Of a stretch of DNA of 64,000 nucleotides, positions 1 to 18,300 are shown piece after piece. The position numbers and the translations under genes were made by a program. Positions within the stretch are counted from its first letter, which is position 1, and each line of letters starts with the position of its first letter. Below the pieces are notes generated by a model. That model saw nothing but the letters and a program-made list of their open reading frames with translations, was not told the DNA's origin and did no database searches. Origin of the DNA: Glandiceps talaboti. Lineage: Eukaryota > Hemichordata > Enteropneusta > Spengelidae. The DNA lies in contig NC_135555.1 in NCBI RefSeq assembly GCF_964340395.1, positions 6,569,931-6,633,930 on the forward strand, in the 5' to 3' direction.

Positions 1-2295
1 GACATGCTAATTTATTTTTTCAATTTTGTATCATTTTCTTGTATTCTTGTCTATAACCATAAATATTTTACAATATATAAAAATATTTATACCGTACCTA
101 AAAAGTACCTGAACCTTCCTACAGATAATACACATTTATTAATATTGCACAATCTGCGCTATAAATCCTGATTTTGTCATTTTAATTACAAATAATTTGA
201 TAAAATAGAGGATGTGATTGCCTAAGAGTAAGTTAATAATGTTACCAGTAATGTCATTATAGTACTTCATTTCATCTGCCAAGTCTACTGGGATGTGTGC
301 TTGATTAACAGCTGTATACATTATTATACTGCTGAGATACTAAATTACTTTTTGTGATGCAGTGCCGTCTTCTAGTCATTTCCTATTCTTAATAATAATG
401 TTTTCAGATGGAATACATTTCATTTAGACAGTGATCAATTTGTCGTTGTTTGCACTCCACGATGCAGAACGCAAACAACAAGTAATCTTACAGTTTAGGG
501 TTTCATTATACATATACATGTAGCAACTACCAAACTGAATGTACACATACTTATCAGCATATAGAAAATATTGCTAAGTGCTAGAACGTAGTTGATTGAT
601 TTCAGGGAAAGAGAGTTGTAGTATTTGTGAGGCAAAGGTATCATAAGCTTGCCACCTGTTTGTCTATTCCCTTTACCGACTGCCTTTTTTTCCTTTTTTT
701 TTTGTATTTATATTTGTTTGTTTGTCATTAGTGTTTCAGGTATATTTATGGTCTTTTTGTCCTGTTGTAGTCTATTGTACATGTTACTTGTTACTTTAAT
801 TATTATTAATATTGTGTAATGTTGACTTGCCTGTGAAGAAAGAATAATAAATAAATAAAAATAACTAAATAAATAAAATGAAATACTTTAATATTTTTCA
901 TTTCAGTTAAATGGAGATGTGGTATTTTTGTGAGATTAATTAAAGCTATCATAAACATTTTTTGAAATTTTGCTTATTTCCTACCTTTCAAAACACACTT
1001 CATATTACTACTCAACACACATACACTATAAATTAAAGAAATGTGTCTTCTAATTACTATAAACACATTAAGTGCTAAAACAGTTTATTACAGTAATCTG
1101 GGGAATTAACCTCTTGACCTATAAAACAGAACATTAGTCAACGACTCACATTACTTTTAATAGCCTGAATGACATTGCAGGTTCTTTCACTTGCTGTCAA
1201 AAATTAACCTGAAATCTGGCCTACACGTATCCTATTTCTGAAGAACATGTAAATGGAAAGAACATGCAGAGAAGATGTGCTTTGTCACTAACTTCAGTTT
1301 CTTTTGAGCATTTAAAAAAAAATCTAGTCACACTTTTAAATGAAATGAAGACTACACTCAAAGTTTTATTACAACATTTTATTGAGATCAAACGTTTAGT
1401 GATCTCAATTCTGAAAAACATTTTGAAAAATTCTGAAAAAATTCTGTAAATACATGTCAGTGTTCTCATGGTGATGACCAATTAGCATAATTATTTACAT
1501 ATAAATAACAGTGATTTGCATAAAGTTTGCATAATGTATGCATGTTTTCAACACTGAAGCACATCATTACTTGTTTATCATTACCCATACCATACACATA
1601 AATGCAACAGGGATAAGGTACATCTCTTCATGTAAAATTAATAAAATAATTATATTGTCATTTATACAGGGAATATCACTACAGGTCAAAGATGGTAGAA
1701 CACAATATATCATATGTCCATCCAAAAAACTATAGACAACAAACACAAACTGTAATTGGTTAATAGTAGCAAGTAAATAAAGTATATTATGTTTTGGGAA
1801 AATGGTATGAGTATGTAAAATCTACTGTCGGATTTTCCGTTTTTATCAAATACGATTTTTAAAAGAAACTTTCCCGCAAATTGTTAAATCATTATGTAAA
1901 ATTTAAAAAAAACACACCATGTATTTCATTAGCCCCCCCCCCCCCCCCACCAAAAAAAAAGAAGAAAGAAAATCAAGTTACTGACAATGATGGCGCTACA
2001 CGCGATCGGTTTACTAAGAATACCGCTTTTCGAATGGCCAGGTCTGCGTAAAGATTGTCTTTTAGATCTGAGAAAAATGTGTACAAGCTACTTTAAATCA
2101 TATTCATCAAACAAAATAAATGTTTACGTAAGTTTTTATTGAGCGACGTGGACCAGTTTTAAAACAACAGTCACATGCGTTTAAATTACATCACAATTCA
2201 CATACACGGTACCACGCGTGTGCATCATCGCATGCGGCGATATCTGGTCACTAAAGCCGATATTATGCTACTTGCCTAATAATATAGATGCTTAC
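1..2295. other. Probable LYRM4 intron, no supported exons
   Basis: This AT-rich stretch lies inside or beyond the LYRM4 gene on the minus strand. I looked for the second LYRM4 exon (the part after the YNYR motif) and did not find it. It contains a poly-C run next to poly-A near 1934-1965, and an (AATA)-rich segment near 845-880. Short ORFs at 139-321 and 1221-1735 have no recognisable similarity and AT-biased composition. Confidence 0.5.
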
Positions 2296-2375: not shown

Positions 2376-3420
2376 GACTTCTGTGTTGTGAGAGCTACCG
2401 ATTTGTTCCCAGAGATCATTGCAATTAACACCCTAACTTGGTTGTTTTTGAATTATAAAATGCATGTCAATTCATCTTCATTAACTGAAAAAACACACTA
2501 CTTTCTGGAACAAATTAGGAATTGATATTCCAAATTAATCACGAATATGACTAAATCAGTCGCTATAAAAGAGTCGCGGAGATTTCATAACCATTTCATA
2601 CAATTTTCATCTAGCTAGGGAATCAAAAAATGGCTGCGCCCAGCGACATGTGAAACCACCGAATCGCTGTTTTGCAGGTATGATCAAAGTGTGCGATTTG
2701 TAAGTACATATGGTGATTGAGGATGGTATTCATGACCTCCAACATATCTACCTCATTTTCTTCATATAATTATGAAAAAGGTTAACATTTGAACTGGACA
2801 CCGCCACCAGCGTAGGAATTGAGAACTAGAATTCTGCTTGCAACTTGCAAGTTGCAGATTACAGCTGTGGACATCAAAGTGTATGAATCCCCTTGTGTAA
2901 CTAGTCAGACTAAATTGATTGTATAAGGTGGATTTCAGTCAGTAAATGACAAGTGGTACCATATATTGGCATGACTTGACCCCATACTGAAGTCAGAGCT
3001 TCCTCGGACTAAAGATAACATTTTTTCGAACATGCAAAAATTCCCAAATGATTTACTATAAATTATAATCATGTTAGTATTGTTACAAAACTCAAATGAA
3101 GAGAAATAAGTAAAATAGAACTAAAAGGATTATACGGAAAATTCAAATTCAAATTCAAATGAGATGAGGATAGAAAATATCGGCAGAAAATCCATAACTA
3201 GTACTTATTTAAATATGTTATTCAAAACATAGGATAATGATAATTATTATTGTATGATTATATGGGATTATAAAGATACTATTATTTTTGCTATTGGATT
3301 TTGACAAATGTTTTTTGAAAGGTAGCATAAACTTTCAATTTTTCTGATCCAGCTTACAGACACTGAAGGATACTCCAGAGCAGGATAAGGTTCACACCAA
3401 AAGTGCCTTTTGATAATTGA
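2376..3420. promoter_or_regulatory. Divergent LYRM4/FARS2 intergenic region with likely shared promoter
   Basis: The LYRM4 start (2375, minus) and FARS2 start (3421, plus) face each other. A possible non-coding first exon of FARS2 ends near 2677 before a GTATGA donor, and it carries a short upstream ORF of seven codons (ATG at 2630). A likely acceptor for the first coding exon is the AG at 3358-3359. No TATA box was identified. The promoter role is inferred from geometry only. Confidence 0.45.
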
Positions 3421-6400
3421 ATGCATGCTATCTTACTAAAGATGTTGACTTTGAGGAGCAAAGCAATGTGGTATAAAACCTGCAGAAACTACCATCATTT
3501 GATGAGGATCTCCAGGAAACCTCAGTTGTCATGGCAACCACTACACACCTCATCTTATCTACATCATCCTCAGTCTTCCGTACAGGAGAATAACAATATT
3601 TTGATACAAGGGAAATCGTTCCATAGAGATGACATGACCACAGTCTCTCCAAAAATTCTCTCAAAGATTGGCCGAGATTTGCACAACCTCAAACACCACC
3701 CAGTTTGCCTGATCAAAGAACAAATACGTGACTTCTTTTATAAACGATTTGCTACTTCCCGTGGTAACCCTATCTTCTCTATTTATGACAACTTGAGTCC
3801 GATTGTCAGTTCGGAACAAAATTTTGATTCAGTGCTTGTACCAAAAGACCACATCAGTCGGCAGAAACAGGACAACTATTACTTGAATACAGACACAATA
3901 TTACGTACACATACGTCAGCTCATCAGTATGATTTGGTGAGATCAGGACTAGATGCCTTCCTAGTGGTAGGTGATGTCTACCGTAGAGATACCGTAGATG
4001 CTAGCCATTATCCTGTATTTCATCAAATGGAAGGTGTTAGATTGTATCATGAACATGAGGTAAGATACAATGGACCAGAGGGGTTTCTTGAAACCATGGA
4101 TGTATTAATGAACATAATATATCCATGTTTTAAAAACCCAAATGAAAAGTGCATGTCTCAGCAAAACTCATCCCCAAAAGGGTTTCCTAAAGTTCTGACT
4201 AGCATTTGCCAGGTTAACAGAGCATCATCTGGTCAGTTCCATGTATATAGAAAGTGTGTGAACTAATGTGAGTGCTTGATCACATATATGGAGTGATATA
4301 TGCATGATTCAGGATGCTACTGATATATTTTTCTCACAGTAACTAGACAAATAAAAACAGCCATGTAAAATTTATATATGCTCAAGGCTGTAGATTACTT
4401 TGTCTGAGTGTAATGCCTTTGGTCTGACATACAAAGATATGCATTTTACTTAATACACTTATACAATACAGGATATCCCGTTATGGATGTATTACAAGTT
4501 CTTAAGAGTGTGTTCATATGTTCTCTCTCTTATTCTTGGGTAATTTTATCCACATCAAAAACTGTTTTGTTAGACCTTGTTGAAGTGTTTTGTCACCAAT
4601 TTGACTGTTTTTATCTTTCTAAATTAGCTAGCCAAGCACACTTAATGCAAATCTGTGCTAAACTCTAAATTTGTCTGTCAAAGGATACTATACCATACGT
4701 CCCTATGGAGATATGGAATTTGTAGTAGGAATGATAGAAACAGAATCATATTGTAATAATTATCAACATTCATGGTGGTAGAGGAAATATTAGTTTGATT
4801 TTGTGTGGAATATTTTTATAATAATGACATCTACACATCTGTCAGATGAAATGATTGCAAGCAGGATTCAAAATTCAAATACAGGAATGTTTATTTGTGT
4901 TCACAGTGAGATAAAATGTAACATTTCATGTGTGTGCATGCTGTCAATACATTTGTACCTGTATTTTATTTGTGTAATTCATAGCAAAAACTGTGTGAGA
5001 TGTAAAAACATTGTGTCGCCTAATTGAAATTTTATAATCTTTCAGGTTTGGTAGTAAGTCGGGTATGTTATGAAGTGTACATTATAGTAAATGATGAAAA
5101 ATTCCTACAATTATAAAATTATGTACTAATAATTGTCCTCTTTCCCTATATTCTAGTTGTTTAAAGACTGCAACGATCCGTCGTTTCTCAGTCTCTTTGA
5201 GATTGGAAAGAAGTCTCCTGTCAAACAAGAGCACCACACTCTAGAAGCAGTCAAACTTGTAGAATTCCAGTTAAAACAGACTCTGACAGAACTTATAGAA
5301 CATCTATTTGGCAAAGGTAAAAAAAAAAGCATTTCAAGTTTTGTGTAATAGTAAACTACTGTATACGTATAGTGCAGCTGGAGAACTGCATATAGTATAC
5401 TCTATCAGGCAATCTCAGTACTGCTAACACTGTACCTTCCCAGTGTTAAAACCTAGCTATCCCAGTTTTACATCATCTTCAAGGGCAAGCAAGGGATTCT
5501 TGAGCTGAACTACATGAGAAAGAAAACTGTGAAATCTTGATAGTGCAGGTTTTAGTGGTTTCATTTCATATGATTATGTTTATCAAAATGAATATCTGGG
5601 GATTGATAAAACCCATGGCATCTCCCATAATTTTGGTGGTAACAGAAGACTACAAGGTAAATTCAGCCTACGATATGTACCAAATACTAATACATGGAAG
5701 ATGATGTGGTTAGATCAACATAGACAGAATCTCAGTGTCAGTTTTTGCTGCTTTCATGCTTCAATCTATGAAGGATTGTTCAACACTCATATCAGACATT
5801 GACATTGTATTTAAATATTTTCACCTTTGTGAAGTACTTGTAGGATACAGAATATAATGTATAGTATTATTCCACTATAACAGCAAATTCACCAGGCAAT
5901 TTATATGATCAATTTATTTCTTGTCAGAAGAAAATTTTACTCGATTGTCATCTTACATAATGTATATATTTTCTAGATATTGAGACTAAATGGGTTGATG
6001 TATACTTTCCATTTACTCATCCATCCTGGGAACTGGAGATCAAATTCCAAGGAGAATGGTTAGAGGTACTAGGCAGTGGAATCATGGAACAAGAAATTCT
6101 CAACAGAGGTACAGTGTAATATAACGAGTTTTATTTTCAAGTTATTAAAATTTTTGTTAAAATGATTGGAAGGTTTTGTGTTGTATTAGTTTATTTGGCA
6201 TTTTCATTGAAATGAGGTAAAATCTCATGATCACACTGTATTCCTTAAAACTCATTCTGTGATACATACAGTATGATTTATATAGAATATCGCTGTCTCG
6301 GATAAACATGTAATGATAACGGAACCCCATTACATGTGAGTGCCAGTTTGGGTACATTTGTGTTTGGGTGTTTTCTGCTCCCCTTTCACTCCATGTGAAA

Positions 6401-7890
6401 GTATAGCATCAGAAAATACAACCAGCACTAATGCAAATAATCCAAGTACAACAAACCTGCACTAATGCATCATGGGATTTTGTTATACTACTTACCATAT
6501 ATGTATGTCAAATTTCTGTAATGAAAGTTCTGAATCCTATTTCTAAAAGACAAAAGTATTGACAAGACAATGAATGCTTACCAGACAATTAGCACCACAC
6601 ATGTACAGTGACATTAGATATGGTAGAAATCTCCATTTATGGCAGCAACCTTCACTCTCAAACTAACATTGGTTTATTTTCTTTTTTTCAGCTGGTGCCA
6701 CTAACAAGATTGGATATGCCTTTGGTTTGGGATTAGAACGCCTCGCAATGATTCTATTTAATATTCCAGATATTAGATTATTCTGGAGTGAAGATGATAG
6801 GTTTCTGTCTCAGTTTAGAAAAGAGAATCCATTCAGTATTCAATTCCAGGTAAATGACGATCATTCCTTAAGTGGTCATATGGATGAGGATTTGGTATTT
6901 ATTTTGGATTTATAAAACAATTTTATCATGGCTTCTTACTTGAAACATCAATGTGAAACAACATTGACCAAGTCTGTGTTTGTGACTCAATAAATTGCAA
7001 AAAGCTAAAAGATGTGTAAACATTTTACACATTTATCAATCTATGGCAATTTATTTAGCTAGTTACAAACAAGGACTTGGCATATGTTGTTTCACATTGA
7101 TTTTTCAACGAGGAAGCCATGATAAAATAGTTTTATAAATCCAAATTGAAAAACAAATACCCAATCCTCATCCACATGGCCACTTTAATGAACGCTAGTA
7201 TTTTTGAAAACACAGTTTTCACAATGTGATGATTTATTACCTTCCCAAGGAATGGTACTCATTCCATGCTAACACTGATGATGTCACAGTGAAGGCCAAG
7301 GGTATCAATGCTATAGTTATGTGCACAAACCTGAAGGATGGCATGTTATTTATTTTCATACACTGAACAATAATAATTGAATCAAAGTTGAGTTTAATAT
7401 CAAAGTCAAGTGGAAATGTTTCCCTGCCCGTGAAGGTTAAGTTTACCCAAATTTACAGATCGCAAAGGTTTTGAAATCTATTACAGCACTCCTCACTCCT
7501 AGTGGCTAATCTCAAGGCCCTTTGTAGCAAATGATGTCTCTAGCATAAGTGAGCTATAATAATATAAGTTACATATCTTGATCTTACCTTGTATTTCAGC
7601 CTTTCAGCAAATATCCACTACTACGAAATGATATTTCATTCTGGTGTCCATCAGGATATCAACCCAATGATTTTTACGACATTGTACGCAGTGTTGGCGG
7701 CGACTTGGTAGAGCAAGTGACATTGATTGATGAGTTCGTTCATCCTAAGACACAAAGACTGAGTCATTGTTACAGGATAGACTACAGACACATGGAGAAA
7801 ACACTCACCAAGACAGAAGTCAGCACAATACACTGGAAGATAGCCGAAGCTGCAGAGAATGAGCTTAATATTGAAGTTAGAAAAATCTAA
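3421..7890 (+). CDS. FARS2: Mitochondrial phenylalanine-tRNA ligase (FARS2), 5 coding exons
   Basis: Exons: 3421-4059, 5157-5316, 5977-6108, 6692-6849 and 7600-7890, giving 459 residues (human is about 451). All junctions are GT-AG and the phases agree. An in-frame TGA directly upstream fixes the start at 3421 or a later Met. The enzyme charges mitochondrial tRNA-Phe as a monomer. The basic N-terminus fits a mitochondrial presequence. The class II core holds the HTSAHQ segment, GDVYRRD, the motif 2 stretch [11 protein letters not shown] near residues 197-209, and motif 3 [11 protein letters not shown] at about 322-332. The C-terminal 95 residues form the ferredoxin-fold anticodon-binding domain ([20 protein letters not shown]). 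The predicted 281-residue ORF reads 207 nt past the true exon 1 donor. Confidence 0.96.
6868..7188. mobile_element. Foldback MITE-like element, family A copy 1
   Basis: Both ends read TTAAGTGG...CCACTTTAA in inverted orientation, and the similarity continues inward through the whole element. Left-arm GGATTTATAAAAC and ATCATGGCTTCTTACTTG recur inverted in the right arm, so the element is a long imperfect palindrome of about 320 bp. It starts 18 nt downstream of the FARS2 exon 4 donor. It has no coding capacity. Two other copies lie at 9954-10323 and 61626-61835. Confidence 0.8.
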
Positions 7891-10766: not shown

Positions 10767-11300
10767 TGTGATTCATGTCTTGGTGATACACTTCATGTCT
10801 GTCAGTATGTCTAGATTCATGGCTTGGTGATACACTTCATGTCTGTCAGTATGTCTAGATTCATGGCTTGGTGATACACTTCATGTCTGTCAGTATGTCT
10901 TGATTCATGTCTTGGTGATACACTTCATGTGTGTCAGTATGTCTTGATTCATGTCATGGTGATAGACTTCATGTCTGTCAGTATGTCTAGATTCATGGCT
11001 TGGTGATACACTTCATGTCTGTCAGTATGTCTTGATTCATGACTTGGTGATACAAGTCATGTCTGTCAGTATGTCTTGATTCAAGGTTTGGTGATACACT
11101 TCATGTCTGTCAGTATGTCTTGATTCATGGTTTGGTGATACACTTCATGTCTGTCAGTATGTTGTGATTCATGACTTGGTGATACACTTCATGTCTGTCG
11201 GTATGTCTTGATTCATGACTTGGTGATACACTTCATGTCTGTCGGTATGTCTTGATTCAAGGTTTGGTGATACACTTCATGTCTGTCAGTACAAGGTATC
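10767..11300 (+). repeat. 44-bp minisatellite, about 12 copies, truncated by assembly gap
   Basis: The unit begins GATTCATGGCTTGGTGATAC and continues ACTTCATGTCTGTCAGTATGTCTT. It is repeated head to tail with few substitutions up to the N run. Unit length is constant at 44 bp. There are no spacers, so this is not a CRISPR array. The gap beginning exactly here suggests the array is longer than assembled. Confidence 0.93.
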
Positions 11301-12455: not shown

Positions 12456-15388
12456 CAAATATAGATATCTCATGGCTTTGACTATATTCTTTTATTTCAC
12501 TTTCCCTGATATAATATGAGACAACAACCACCAGCCACCAGAGTCAATTTCTGAAAGTACAAGTATGACCAGACAATATATTCTATTACACATCAAATAT
12601 TGGAATATTTGATAGGTATTTTTATCATATAAATGCTAGGATATTTATTCTGATTATTTGGAATTGTAGGAATTTCATATGGTAAATACTGGTATTAATA
12701 TTAGTAATTTGTTTCTTTATGGCATCATCAGTCATTGTCCAGTTTTACTTTTTTCTTTCTTTCAAATCCAAAGATTCAACTTCAAGTAAATGATCTGTGA
12801 ATTTTTTTCAACTCTTTACAAAATGATACAGTTCATGAGATTGATCATTATTCTTTTTTTTTAGTTCACAAACCAGTAGATCCCTAGAAGGGATATGGAT
12901 TTACAGTCCCAGTGAGGGACTTAGTCTGCACCTTTATGGTTTAAAACTAAACCACTGCCGTTGTAGATGGTCACCATGGTCACTAAGTCAGTAGTATACT
13001 TTTGTATAATCATGTGTATATGATTATGTTTTTATGTTATTTTTAGTTATTAAGTAATTTGTAATTAATAATCCTGAGTGACAGGAAAAGCAGCACTAAA
13101 TCTAAAAAGTTGTGTTAGGTTGCTTTTTGTTGCTTGTATTGTTGTATTTCAATCATATTTTGTTGATGTGACATACAAATAAACTCTGCCATGTACATGT
13201 ATTACATGTTTGTATTTGCCATGAATCTTGTAACAAATATTACATTTACTTCATAAACTTATAAGTATATTTGCAGTGCTGAATTGGTAACACCACATGC
13301 AAACTAAGTTCTACACATTCAAACAGAAAACATGGGATATATCTTCTACTCCTCATTGGTTCAGTTTGCTCAAAAAATGGGTCACAACATTCAAAATCGG
13401 TATTACTTTTCTCAATTGTCCATAAATTAGGCTTGCAGAAGTATAATTATTCACCAATATTTCTCTCTAAGCTGGAAAATACTGTAAACCTGGAGAATTT
13501 GATCACATTTCATTTTTGTCTTCAGCTAGATTTCAAAGACAACTTTTCGCTAATTACAGACTGGTATATTGCGTTCATGTACAAGAAGGCATTTACATAT
13601 TTTTCATGTTTTTGTTGTCCAGTAAAATAAGCAAAAATAACTCCTAAGTGAAGATTTCCAGGTTTACAATACTCATGACCTAAGGGTTTTGTCACTACTC
13701 ATCTTTCAAATACTCGTAGTGACAAGGCTGCCTAGGTCACTTGTATTTTCCTTCGCTGAACCAAGAAAAATATTGGTAAATGATATCCAATTAATCCCCA
13801 ATAGTTTTTTCACTCGGCAGAAAATTCCTTGCAACAAGAATTTTGTTATTACTTGTCGACTCATCTTTTACATGTAGTTGTATTCCCCTATGTGACTCAC
13901 ACTTTCTTTGACTGAACAGAGAAAAAATATTGGGGACTAAGTTGATATACAAATGTCAGCACAAAATATGGGAATTTCCAACTAAATTTCTTCATGCATG
14001 AGCTTTATAAATACTATAATATACTATATATATGGAACAATACTACCGGTAAATTGTTACAATAATGCAAGAAGTTGATGGTGTATGTATGATCCATGCA
14101 AGTCTAGCTTGGAATCCATGCAGATTGGGATTTTAAATTTTGCTTTCCAAATAGCCTGGAATCCATGCTTTTTTGCTTTAAAATTTGCAATTGGAGAGCT
14201 AACAAACTTTAAAATCACAATCCACATGGGTTCCAGGGCTAATGCAATTCTGTGTATTCCCTTACGATGAGTAAAGGGACAGTGAGTTCCCTAGTCTGTA
14301 AAAATGTGTTGTGTCACTCTATCAGCTGTGATTGAGAAGCCTGATAGGGGCTGAACAACAAGTATCTTACAGTGTGTATGAGTTAACTGATAATTCAGAA
14401 TACCATTTTGATGAAATGAAACCCACATTTCAAACCACTGCAGTCATGGTATGAATACAATCGCCACACTACATCTCATCTTTTAGAAGTGACTACATTT
14501 ATTCATTTATGAGAAATTCAGACTACTATTAAATTCATATTAAATGGCAAATCAGTAATATGGCAGTACATATAAATGAAATACATTTCTGTGCTTTTTT
14601 TTGCAAATTTGAAAAATACCTGTAACTTGACAAGACATGACTCAAATGTTTTCTCTAACGATGATTTGGTCATGAGATAGTGAACAACTGTTTGTTTTAT
14701 TTAACAAAGTCTACTAAATACTTTATGTTCAGGATTGACTGCCACCCGAGTCAGCTGTTAATTAGTACATCTTGGTTGGAAAAGGGTTGACCTCTGCCAA
14801 CAATGGCTGACAATGTTAAGAAAGTTAGGTTATGTGACAAAGAAAACTTTCCTCACAGACGTAGAAACAGAATTCACTGCACTAAAATCCTTCCACAACA
14901 ACATAGTTTTTCTTTGTATCATCCACATGCTGCATTATTTATCCCACACAAGGTTGTCAACAGAAACCTAACACTTAATAACAAGTATTGTACATAAGAT
15001 GTACTTGACCATTTGTCATGACACAATTTACATGTTTCCTTTGGTACAAAAAAACATTGTTATCTTTATACACATCAGTATTTCACCTGATTATACCCTG
15101 TATAAGCACACTTGTTGTGGTGACAATAATGCTCTTCCTTTAAACTAGTGGTAAAAATTTTAAAATTCACTTCTTCCAAAATATATATGACTTCAAGTCA
15201 TTAATGATATGATATGATAACCACCACCCCCCCCCCCCCAAAAAAAAAAAAATCAAAAAAAAAAATCAAAAAGAAAATCAGAAGCGCTGTCCTCATTGCA
15301 GGGAATACATTTTAATTTGATGCAAGTCAAAATCCGTATCTTTTCCTAACGACTGGTGATAGACTTTATACAGTCTGTCATTACCATA
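12456..15388. other. Intergenic stretch between the basic ORF and NIPSNAP
   Basis: The first part is the presumed 3'UTR of the basic ORF. The rest is AT-rich with short ORFs (13433-13630, 13689-13877, 14085-14270, 14803-14997) that show no homology or consistent splice structure. A poly-C tract followed by poly-A lies at 15227-15265. The two flanking genes are convergent here. Confidence 0.5.
13178..13183 (+). terminator. Possible polyadenylation signal after the basic ORF
   Basis: An AATAAA hexamer about 720 nt past the stop at 12455, followed by GT-rich sequence. It supports a plus-strand transcript ending near 13200. Confidence 0.35.
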
Positions 15389-18300
15389 CTACTTCATAGG
15401 TGAGAAAGATGTTGGTAGAAGTATCTTGCTGTTCATTTCAGCTACATTCTGCCAGAAGTCAACACCTGTAGGATACAGATACAAGGGTTGAGTAAAATGA
15501 AAAGTTAAACAAAAAAATTCATTACATTGGGCACAAAAATGTATTGATTGTGGAAATCATTGAGAAAAGTCACCACAAAGATAAGCATGAAAATTAAAAC
15601 GGGGTTGGTTTTTTACATCTAAACATCTCAAGAACACATTGCTTCTTTAGTACATAAATTTAGTACATAAATACACTGTGGATTATAAAGCAACTCTTAC
15701 ACAACTGACTTTTTTAAAAAGGAAGACAAAATGTGAGACATCCCTAACATAATCTCTCTCATATAGTTTACACAGTACTTTGTAAAACTGAGTAGTTGGT
15801 ACTGAGAACCACTTGTTATCAGAGAATTCTAAATCAATTCTCATTAATAACTTAGTAGATATAGGCTCCAAACTAGACAAATATACAGTCAATGTACTTG
15901 TTCCGATCAGTGAAGATTTCCATGGTAACTATAAATTTTTATCTAAATTTTAAAAGGAGACAAGTTTGAAGTTCTACTCCAAAGTGTATGACTATCAGCT
16001 TTATTCACAAAGGTACTGAAATATATATTTTTTTTCATTCCATGACGGTGATTTGTTTGGAAAATGCAATGAAATGATAAGTCTCCCATTCTTTTCTAAA
16101 TACGATAAGCTGAGAGGGCAGTCGAAATCAACCAACCAAAAACTCCTACACTAGATACTTACTTGCATCTCTGACTTGCTGTGTTGAGTTACAGATAGCT
16201 CTGCCTTCATGTCTATGATCTAAACTCTTCCAATTCCAGATGTGATACACTAGAATCAACCAATATCAAACATTCTGTAAGCCTTTACAAACAGACTGTT
16301 ATATATCTCTTAACACAGCCTTTACAGGTTGAGCATGTAGTCTGGCTTGAACAAGATGTCAAATTCAGTGAGACGTACTGTCCACAAAGTTTTGTGTTAA
16401 CTTTTTTACTTTAAGCTCATAATACAGCCGTTAGAAGATGAGCATGCCATTTAGATAAGATGAGATATCAAGTTCAGTGAGACTGGTCACAAAGTTGAAA
16501 GTTAACGAAAAAGGAATACCTTGTGAATTCACCATGTTTTAATACAATCTTGGATTTACAACATAAGATGTGTTTATAGTTGCTGTCACTTCATTTGCAT
16601 CGATCAGTACTAACAGGTGGAAGTGACATATAGGCCTTGCTTGGCAATACATTTAAATGGGAGTTCCCTAGCAAAGTCTCATTGTCACTTCCAAGTTATG
16701 CCCAATGTCAGCTCCATACTGATAAGTAAAAGATACTAAAACCAATGTATTTTATTCTGATGTTAGCAATACCAACTGAAATGTGTCACTGGAAAATTAC
16801 TACATGTAAATGGGAGATAGATACTGGTCTGAATAAGCAAATAATTGTCAAAGAACTAATGTGATGATATTAATTGTCAGATCATACCATGGTTTAATGG
16901 ACCAATGTCTGTCACAAAGACTCCAAGAATTTTACAATAATCAGTCTTGTTGTATGCTGCAACTCTGGCATCTAATGCTTTCTTCACAGAATCTAACCAA
17001 GCCATGTCAGCAGCTGGCTTCATTTTATACCATCTCAGTTCATAAACACCTGTAAGATAAATCAGAATGGTATTACCACCCTCAGATAGAGGGTGTTTGT
17101 TAATATTATTATTATACACTTACCCCCACCCCCACCCCTCTCTGGTACCACCCTTGCCTAGGGGGTTTATTAGAATATATTTATCACCCAGGTGACCCTC
17201 AGTTAGGGGGTTTAGGATGGACTTATACCACCCTAAGTTAGGGGGTTTAATACAATAGATTTGCCACCCTCTGCAAGGTAGTTTATTACAATAGACACCA
17301 TCCTCAGCTAGGAGGTTTATTACAATGGCCTTACCACCCTCAGATAAGGGGTCTTTTACAAGAGACTTACCACCCTCAGCTAGTGGGTTTTCATACACTG
17401 GATACCATGGTACACTTCTCAACACCACATTGTCCTGTTTGGTCAACATTGGAGTCATTTTTGACAAATAACGACTGATCCATTCTGGATCTTCTGATAA
17501 GGCCTTCCTGACACCAGTACGATGTGCAAAATTATCTGAAAGAGCAAAAATCAATTCACATTTACTGCTTTACAATAGAAGAATGGGTGATGGAGTTTTG
17601 TGGAGGCTCACTGGATCCAGAGACTTTTAATACCTTCATTGCTAAAGTACTCCCTACTCAGTACTGTGCTACTTTCAGCTTCTTTCTTTTTCATATCGCT
17701 CCTACAAATAAAATGCTGTTTACTCATTTTATTCATTCCTATATACATATCATGATGCCCTGCATATTTTCATCCACAAATTGTGCACACTTTGTTGGTA
17801 GGTTATATTGCACCTTTTGACAGAGTGAGACAAGAACACATAAATGGTATGTGTCATTGTCAAATTATCAACATATCCCATTTCACACTTATATCGAAAT
17901 GTTCCTCGTTATTTCAAGCCTTGATAAGTTGGATCCACACATAACTCAATCCTCACAATAACTCAATAAGGAAGTCTTATACATACGTGTAAATACCGAA
18001 AACAGAAGGCTTAATTACCATATTCCCACAAGTGTACCATTTCACCCAGCCCTCCTAACTCTGCAGTCCAATAGCCAAGCAGCTTGGAATGATTGGTTCG
18101 AAGGTGAAAATTGTCCTTGGTCAGTGCTAAAAACTCCCCAATTCTGGATGTTTGTACAGAATAGGTCCTCAATTCATACACTTTGTCAGATTGTTGATTT
18201 GGTTGACTGTTGGAGAACTTCCTGGCAACATGTACACATGGCAGGGATTGTCTACCTTGAAGGTACTAAAGGAATGGAAGTTCAGAGTTCAAATCAATGG

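Follow-up and report, generated by a model that had tools for sequence, protein, structure and literature searches.

The 321-nt intron of a NIPSNAP gene in this hemichordate genome is very probably a minisatellite that spans its own 5' splice junction, an intron of the kind called a 'mirage' in lancelets. Nearly all of this intron is made up of decayed tandem repeats of the upstream exon's end, donor included. The unit was found at this one place in the genome, arrays of the same architecture recur at other donors, and tandem repeats are frequent throughout the sampled sequence. The gene lies in a stretch of 64,000 nt, referred to below as the window (G000:C8:6569931-6633930), of a 590-Mb assembly in 47 contigs.

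We propose that tandem duplication acted more than once on a segment of about 36 nt reaching across the exon end and donor, in part on double units of 70 nt, by slippage or unequal exchange as for the minisatellites found throughout the genome. Copying would have proceeded from exon to intron. Selection on the protein and on the splice site would preserve the copy next to the exon, and the inner copies, being intronic, would drift. By comparison with the human sequence, the exonic part would be older than the intronic copies.

The NIPSNAP gene and its intron

The gene is on the minus strand of the window and was identified as a NIPSNAP by Pfam: joining exons 18019-18190 (5' end provisional), 17371-17535 and 16888-17049 gives an open frame that matches PF07978 with an E-value of 5.8e-31. 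By comparison with the human protein it is putatively NIPSNAP3 rather than another NIPSNAP. Frame and splice-site sequences suggest that the spliceosome uses donor 17370 and acceptor 17050, and with the boundary so placed, a tandem unit spans the junction of exon and intron. Coordinates are given in Table 1.

Table 1. Features of the NIPSNAP locus, in window coordinates. Slashes mark borders.
Feature	Position	Strand	Remarks
Coding exon upstream of the intron	17371..17535	-	ends ...PWYPVYENPLAEG/G; Pfam, frame, borders
Exon stretch TGGTATCCAGTGTATGA, like intronic half of unit TGGTAAGTCTATTGTAAT in register	17391..17407	-	17-mer comparison, post hoc
Exonic part of repeat unit (last 20 nt of upstream exon)	17371-17390	-	repeat comparison
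Intron	17050..17370	-	321 nt, phase 1, GTAAGT...TTACAG; seven units in tandem, then a decayed end
Predicted donor in use, GTG/GTAAGT	17365..17370	-	score 5.9
Second donor, GTG/GTAAGG	17329..17334	-	+36, in frame, score 4.7
Third donor, GGG/GTAAGT	17118..17123	-	+247, out of frame, score 5.6
Unit 1	17334..17369	-	36 nt
Unit 2	17298..17333	-	36 nt
Unit 3	17264..17297	-	34 nt
Unit 4	17228..17263	-	36 nt
Unit 5	17193..17227	-	35 nt
Unit 6	17148..17192	-	45 nt, 9-nt insertion
Unit 7	17076..17147	-	72 nt, enlarged by G-rich and AT-rich runs
Last 26 nt of intron, with acceptor TTATCTTACAG	17050..17075	-	unit likeness borderline
Coding exon downstream of the intron	16888..17049	-	(G)VYELRWYKMKPAADMAW...; frame, borders
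Donor GTATGATC after the downstream exon	at 16887	-	

Seven diverged copies of a unit of about 36 nt, comprising exon end and donor, make up the intron to within 26 nt of its 3' end. Each unit begins with the copy of the donor region, often decayed, and ends with the copy of the exon end. Scored against the unit consensus TAAGTCTATTGTAATAAACCCCCTAGCTGAGGGTGG, units 1 to 4 reach 50 to 58 out of a maximum of 72, and the 20-nt core is present in eight copies (one exonic and seven intronic) that are 75-100% like the reference copy. TRF reports periods of 36 and 70 in the array, and the autocorrelation of the intron has z-values of 5.5 at 70, 4.8 at 150, and 4.7 at 36, where the maxima of 1000 shuffles have a median of 2.7, a 99th percentile of 3.95, and a largest value of 5.1. 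The exon tail aligns to the intron with a local score of 28, the maximum of 500 shuffles being 20-24 according to tail length; in a second test the 48-mer spanning the junction has a z of 8.0, a value that none of 300 shuffles equals. At three or fewer mismatches the unit pattern has six matches in the 64-kb window, all of them in the array and the exon copy, with 0.19 expected. The seven intronic copies do not become more decayed with distance from the exon, the matches to a 26-mer being 21, 20, 19, 20, 18, 19, and 21 at +36, +72, +106, +142, +177, +222, and +294; this counts against the proposed history. For the 26 nt at the acceptor end, a proportion of 0.015-0.08 of window stretches, depending on the length compared, equal its score against the unit.

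An earlier note on this DNA had described the intron as mostly diverged copies of the upstream exon end with its donor, with a length divisible by three and a flanking frame that runs through it with one TAA, and had proposed a self-comparison for repeat periodicity. The periodicity and the likeness of exon and intron, both above shuffles, agree with this description; the length is 107 x 3, and exactly one stop would be present if the intron were retained. The note had further called the donor 36 nt downstream perfect and had credited it with adding two PL.EGGK segments. Its position, its frame, and the 12 residues that its use would insert (GKSLVKDPLSEG) stand, but the site is good rather than perfect (GTAAGG, 4.7 against 5.9), and the insert provides one PL.EGG beside the one already in the exon, not two. 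The length variants that the note thought the intron may still give would arise from this weaker donor. Donor copies are decayed in most other units.

Junction arrays at other genes

A coordinate-chosen sample of 150 kb (15 existing regions of 20) was scanned together with the window for repeated donor contexts. One coding exon, at L015:7029, is followed by copies of ...AGAACCAGGAGGTTCAGCTGAAAG/GTAAG; its junction copies have a z of 23. The exon and the diverged copies of its end and donor in the intron are at L015:6745-7065 (minus strand). The gene is assigned as a PDZ gene by the Pfam match of the next exon, the exon at 7029 being itself without a match, and is presumably GRIP-like. The same scan flagged L011:6574 and L012:8288, with no long open frame before them; the simple repeats L011:319, L013:463, L014, and L023:2879; and L022:2950 on the plus strand. 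On the minus strand of L022, at 2991-3351, a probable coding exon is immediately followed by 12 repeats of a 29-nt unit in which GTAAGT occurs, and WD40 exons are present on the same strand. This array (L022:3334) was left out of the counts because the probable exon has no Pfam match.

A sample blind to repeats was drawn from internal protein kinase exons, of which 20 were obtained and 17 have a credible donor (L033, L036, and L043 were dropped for having none). The junction 48-mer is copied in the next 392 nt at three of the 17 donors, those of L046, L034, and L044, and in each case none of 300 shuffles does as well; all three exons are kinase by Pfam. At locus L046 (G000:C11:10676194-10677527) the exon, from a presumably NEK-like kinase, is followed by eight copies of its own end and donor (z 38), in an array of 84-nt units that are 96% alike (TRF 555-1229) and each contain GTAAGTTTGT; the copies are in frame, and the frame is open throughout. 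L034 has about two copies of a 60-nt unit (z 10; TRF 611-725, reverse strand), and L044 has two to three copies of a 77-nt unit (z 8; TRF 575-776, reverse strand). At the 20 acceptors of the kinase exons no junction copies were seen (largest z 1.7).

A second sample of 20 exons was taken from the same loci and the window. Thirty frames were scanned and 21 have a Pfam E-value of 0.05 or less; 19 of these were used, a few of them under Pfam's cut-off, and the weak matches L017:4597 and L020:7290 were left out; the twentieth exon is L015:7029. No strong case appeared at its 16 further donors, and no case at all at its 20 acceptors (largest z 1.5). Below the array cases rank the donors L012:7969 (z 3.0), L041 (z 2.5), window 7876 (z 2.4), and NIPSNAP 16887 (z 2.2), which are not counted as arrays. 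The scores of NIPSNAP and the four other array cases range from 32 to 96.

Donors, acceptors, and the genomic background

Junction copies were compared with random places in the same 214 kb. A copy scoring at least 32 in the next 392 nt is found for 492 of 4000 random 48-mers (12.3%) and for 9.3% of 3428 complex ones. The rate varies by locus from 0 to 78%, is 2.5% of 1148 in the window, and falls to 235/3639 (6.5%) when the satellite-rich L012 and L021 are removed. These two, among the 15 coordinate-chosen 10-kb pieces, are mostly tandem repeat, with near copies of 78% and 65% of their sampled 48-mers. Within the window, a 44-nt minisatellite of 11.9 copies (93%) at 10769-11291 adjoins a run of N.

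The two samples together provide 33 donors, comprising the 17 from kinase exons and 16 from the second sample with a score above 3. Dropped from the latter were window 7876, 26330, 33268, and NIPSNAP 16887 (score below 3) and window:34931-35332 (none found); the 33 also exclude NIPSNAP 17370 and L015:7029, since it was the arrays that had led to these two. The 40 acceptors (20 kinase and 20 from the second sample) were assigned by a simple score, by which some may be wrong, and the NIPSNAP acceptor (z -0.1) is outside them. The donor contexts of L035, L038, and L039 are almost identical, and L035 shares its acceptor context with L039, so that these are not independent.

Junction copies are present at 3/33 donors as against 0/40 acceptors (Fisher p 0.09). 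The probability of at least three among 17 donors is 0.21 at a background of 9.3% and 0.09 at 6.5%; that of none among 40 acceptors is 0.02 and 0.07, respectively. We had first read the 3/17 as showing arrays special to donors, and dropped this claim because of the random-place control (12.3%, or 9.3% for complex 48-mers). The donor figure is near background and not clearly enriched, minisatellites crossing donors about as often as other places; given the low rate in the window and the probability of 0.09 at the 6.5% background, a mild preference for donors is compatible with the counts. Acceptors may fall below background, and the asymmetry between donors and acceptors is only suggestive. It would make sense if extra AGs upstream compete with the true acceptor and extra donors behind the true one are merely intronic. 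In a genome so rich in minisatellites, junction arrays would be expected whenever a duplication straddles a donor. That minisatellites are common enough for donors to be no clearly preferred sites was a point the earlier note had missed.

Origin of the intronic copies

The NIPSNAP intron, searched against the 590-Mb genome, matches itself only, and the 24-mer of the unit core, allowing up to three mismatches, occurs at two places in the whole genome, both in the NIPSNAP array. Such searches score the best candidates only, and absence elsewhere holds at the sensitivity used; a whole-genome search with a 38-mer has little force, as it gave no match, even in the NIPSNAP array. The copies are local, as in mirages, with no sign of a dispersed element within search sensitivity, and a dispersed element was rejected on the intron and 24-mer searches. 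Introns made of repeated units can be mobile elements or introners. We consider this source extremely improbable for the NIPSNAP intron, since within search sensitivity the 590 Mb contain the unit at no other site, other donors have arrays of different units, and near-identical copies at many loci, the mark of introners, did not appear in the whole-genome searches. Minisatellites are common enough in the genome that the exon end might resemble an unrelated intronic one by chance, but the array continues the register of the exon copy, and both shuffle tests (28 against maxima of 20-24; z 8.0, 0/300) leave this reading with next to no credibility. The array might be kept for two protein lengths, the second donor being in frame and scoring 4.7 to the first donor's 5.9. 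This seems very improbable to us in view of the decayed donors of most other units, the strong third donor at 17123, which is out of frame, and the units of 77 and 29 nt elsewhere, which are not multiples of three. The earlier note's suggestion that tandem duplication of a segment containing the donor gave rise to the intron, or enlarged it, is supported: the copies are tandem, were found at no other genomic site, and have counterparts of the same architecture elsewhere at much higher identity.

A special case of the mirage reading would make the NIPSNAP intron a gain rather than the takeover of an older intron. A wholly exonic segment of 36 nt (12 codons, WYPVYENPLAEG) would have been duplicated within one exon, TGGTAT of its Trp-Tyr codons becoming the G/GTAAGT donor and an AG/GT near the last copy the acceptor; we hold such a gain to be possible but rather unlikely. 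In its favour, only the last 26 nt of the intron lie outside the repeats, whereas the arrays of L015, L034, L044, and L046 are followed, as far as fetched, by sequence without the unit, and the 36-nt unit and the 321-nt intron both keep the frame. With the intron removed, GAG GGT GTT TAT would read E-G-V-Y, as in the human KEGVYEL. The exon stretch upstream of the core, TGGTATCCAGTGTATGA, is also similar, in register, to TGGTAAGTCTATTGTAAT from the intronic half of the unit; an equal score is reached by 0.0069 of the window 17-mers (about 20,000 compared) and by 0.0057 of the coding 17-mers (2794 compared). If this likeness is true, the whole unit would be exonic (12 codons) and the donor would come from the Trp-Tyr codons, and it weakly suggests as much; the register test was chosen after the likeness had been seen and so carries little weight, a search not confined to that register is equalled by 144 to 561 of 1000 shuffles and has no significance, and the similarity on the acceptor side is borderline (0.015-0.08). 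As in intron gain by AGGT duplication, the source of the intron is duplicated neighbouring sequence, by the local score and the junction 48-mer.

Applied to the genome at large, tandem duplication across 5' splice junctions would be a running source of intron growth and birth. A 12-codon stretch of exon would have given rise to the entire NIPSNAP intron, its TGGTAT changing to the donor; the NEK-like kinase would represent a young stage and NIPSNAP an old one, and donor-spanning copies would be tolerated and acceptor-spanning ones purged. We offer this combined scenario as a speculation that is more doubtful still.

A search for relatives in viral and prokaryote collections confirmed none. A second NIPSNAP gene (PF07978) on contig C19 is a distant paralogue, and its domain-boundary exon is outside L032. 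One exon of the paralogue is present in two tandem versions (L032:6150-6551 and 6777-6959, minus strand; ..GLFTQIGQLYMVHHIF and ..GLFTQIGDLYQVHHVW), which are perhaps mutually exclusive exons. Repetitive open frames near the paralogue, at about 4392-5090 and 6975-7990 of L032, point to large arrays.

Relationship to known systems

The phenomenon, as the earlier note failed to recognise, has been described in lancelets, where 'mirages' are minisatellite-like tandem duplications of exon/intron boundaries in the globin genes BflGb6 and BflGb9 and in Adh3, with units of 10-160 bp and AG/GT signals in many copies; they splice regularly by RT-PCR and are proposed as a source of introns (PMC3087553). 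PGBD5, with cases of 60 and 108 bp, and TnC are further lancelet examples (PMC3902484). The NIPSNAP intron resembles these in having tandem copies of an exon end and splice site with similar unit lengths. It differs in that the array fills nearly the whole intron, in that only 5' junctions were found here (0/40 acceptors) where lancelets have both kinds, and in that splicing is predicted from frame and sites, in a hemichordate, whereas the lancelet splicing comes from RT-PCR. The open-licence literature gave lancelet cases and a paper on pines but no hemichordate report of mirages, and this is apparently a known kind of intron in a new lineage.

In the fission yeast genes SPOG_01682 and SOCG_00815 an exonic segment of 24 bp is repeated several times, and introns run across the copies (Zhu and Niu 2013, as told in PMC4974935, where Hellsten 2011 is cited alongside for intron gain by tandem duplication). 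The NIPSNAP array is similar in having multiple tandem copies of a short exon-end segment, one of which supplies the donor. The tandem-duplication model has both splice sites coming from the duplicated segment and relatives that are intronless, and NIPSNAP is likened to it by the donor side only. With ordinary intronic minisatellites the array would share the process of copying, 12.3% of the 4000 random 48-mers having a near tandem copy, but unlike them it has its first copy in coding sequence, where it holds the donor.

How new introns originate has long been asked, and few cases have been dated. NIPSNAP and the other arrays would extend mirages beyond lancelets, with arrays on perhaps a tenth of the sampled 5' splice junctions (3/33) and of ages from 96% identical to decayed. 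Such a genome would allow measurement of the rate of array formation, of the tolerance of donors as against acceptors, and of how often an array ends as an ordinary intron.

The mitochondrial contig

Contig C40 of the same assembly is mitochondrial. As far as the open frames were read, its protein order is vertebrate-like apart from cob, which is placed between atp6 and cox3. In alignments with mammalian chains, read by eye, 32 ATA codons from cox1, cob, nad4, and nad1 (13 of nad2 being left out) face Ile in 19 cases, Met in 2, and other residues in 11. ATA coding for Ile is common to echinoderms and hemichordates, and echinoderm mitochondrial orders are very different from the vertebrate order (PMC2697986). 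According to the same source nd5 adjoins cob in two hemichordates; in C40 it does not. By the use of ATA as Ile and the gene order the animal is likely to be a hemichordate; the place of cob speaks against this. The contig (G000:C40, 51,222 bp) contains the 15,435-bp mitochondrial genome head to tail about 3.3 times, with cox1 at 12741, 28176, and 43611, and this repetition is probably an assembly artefact.
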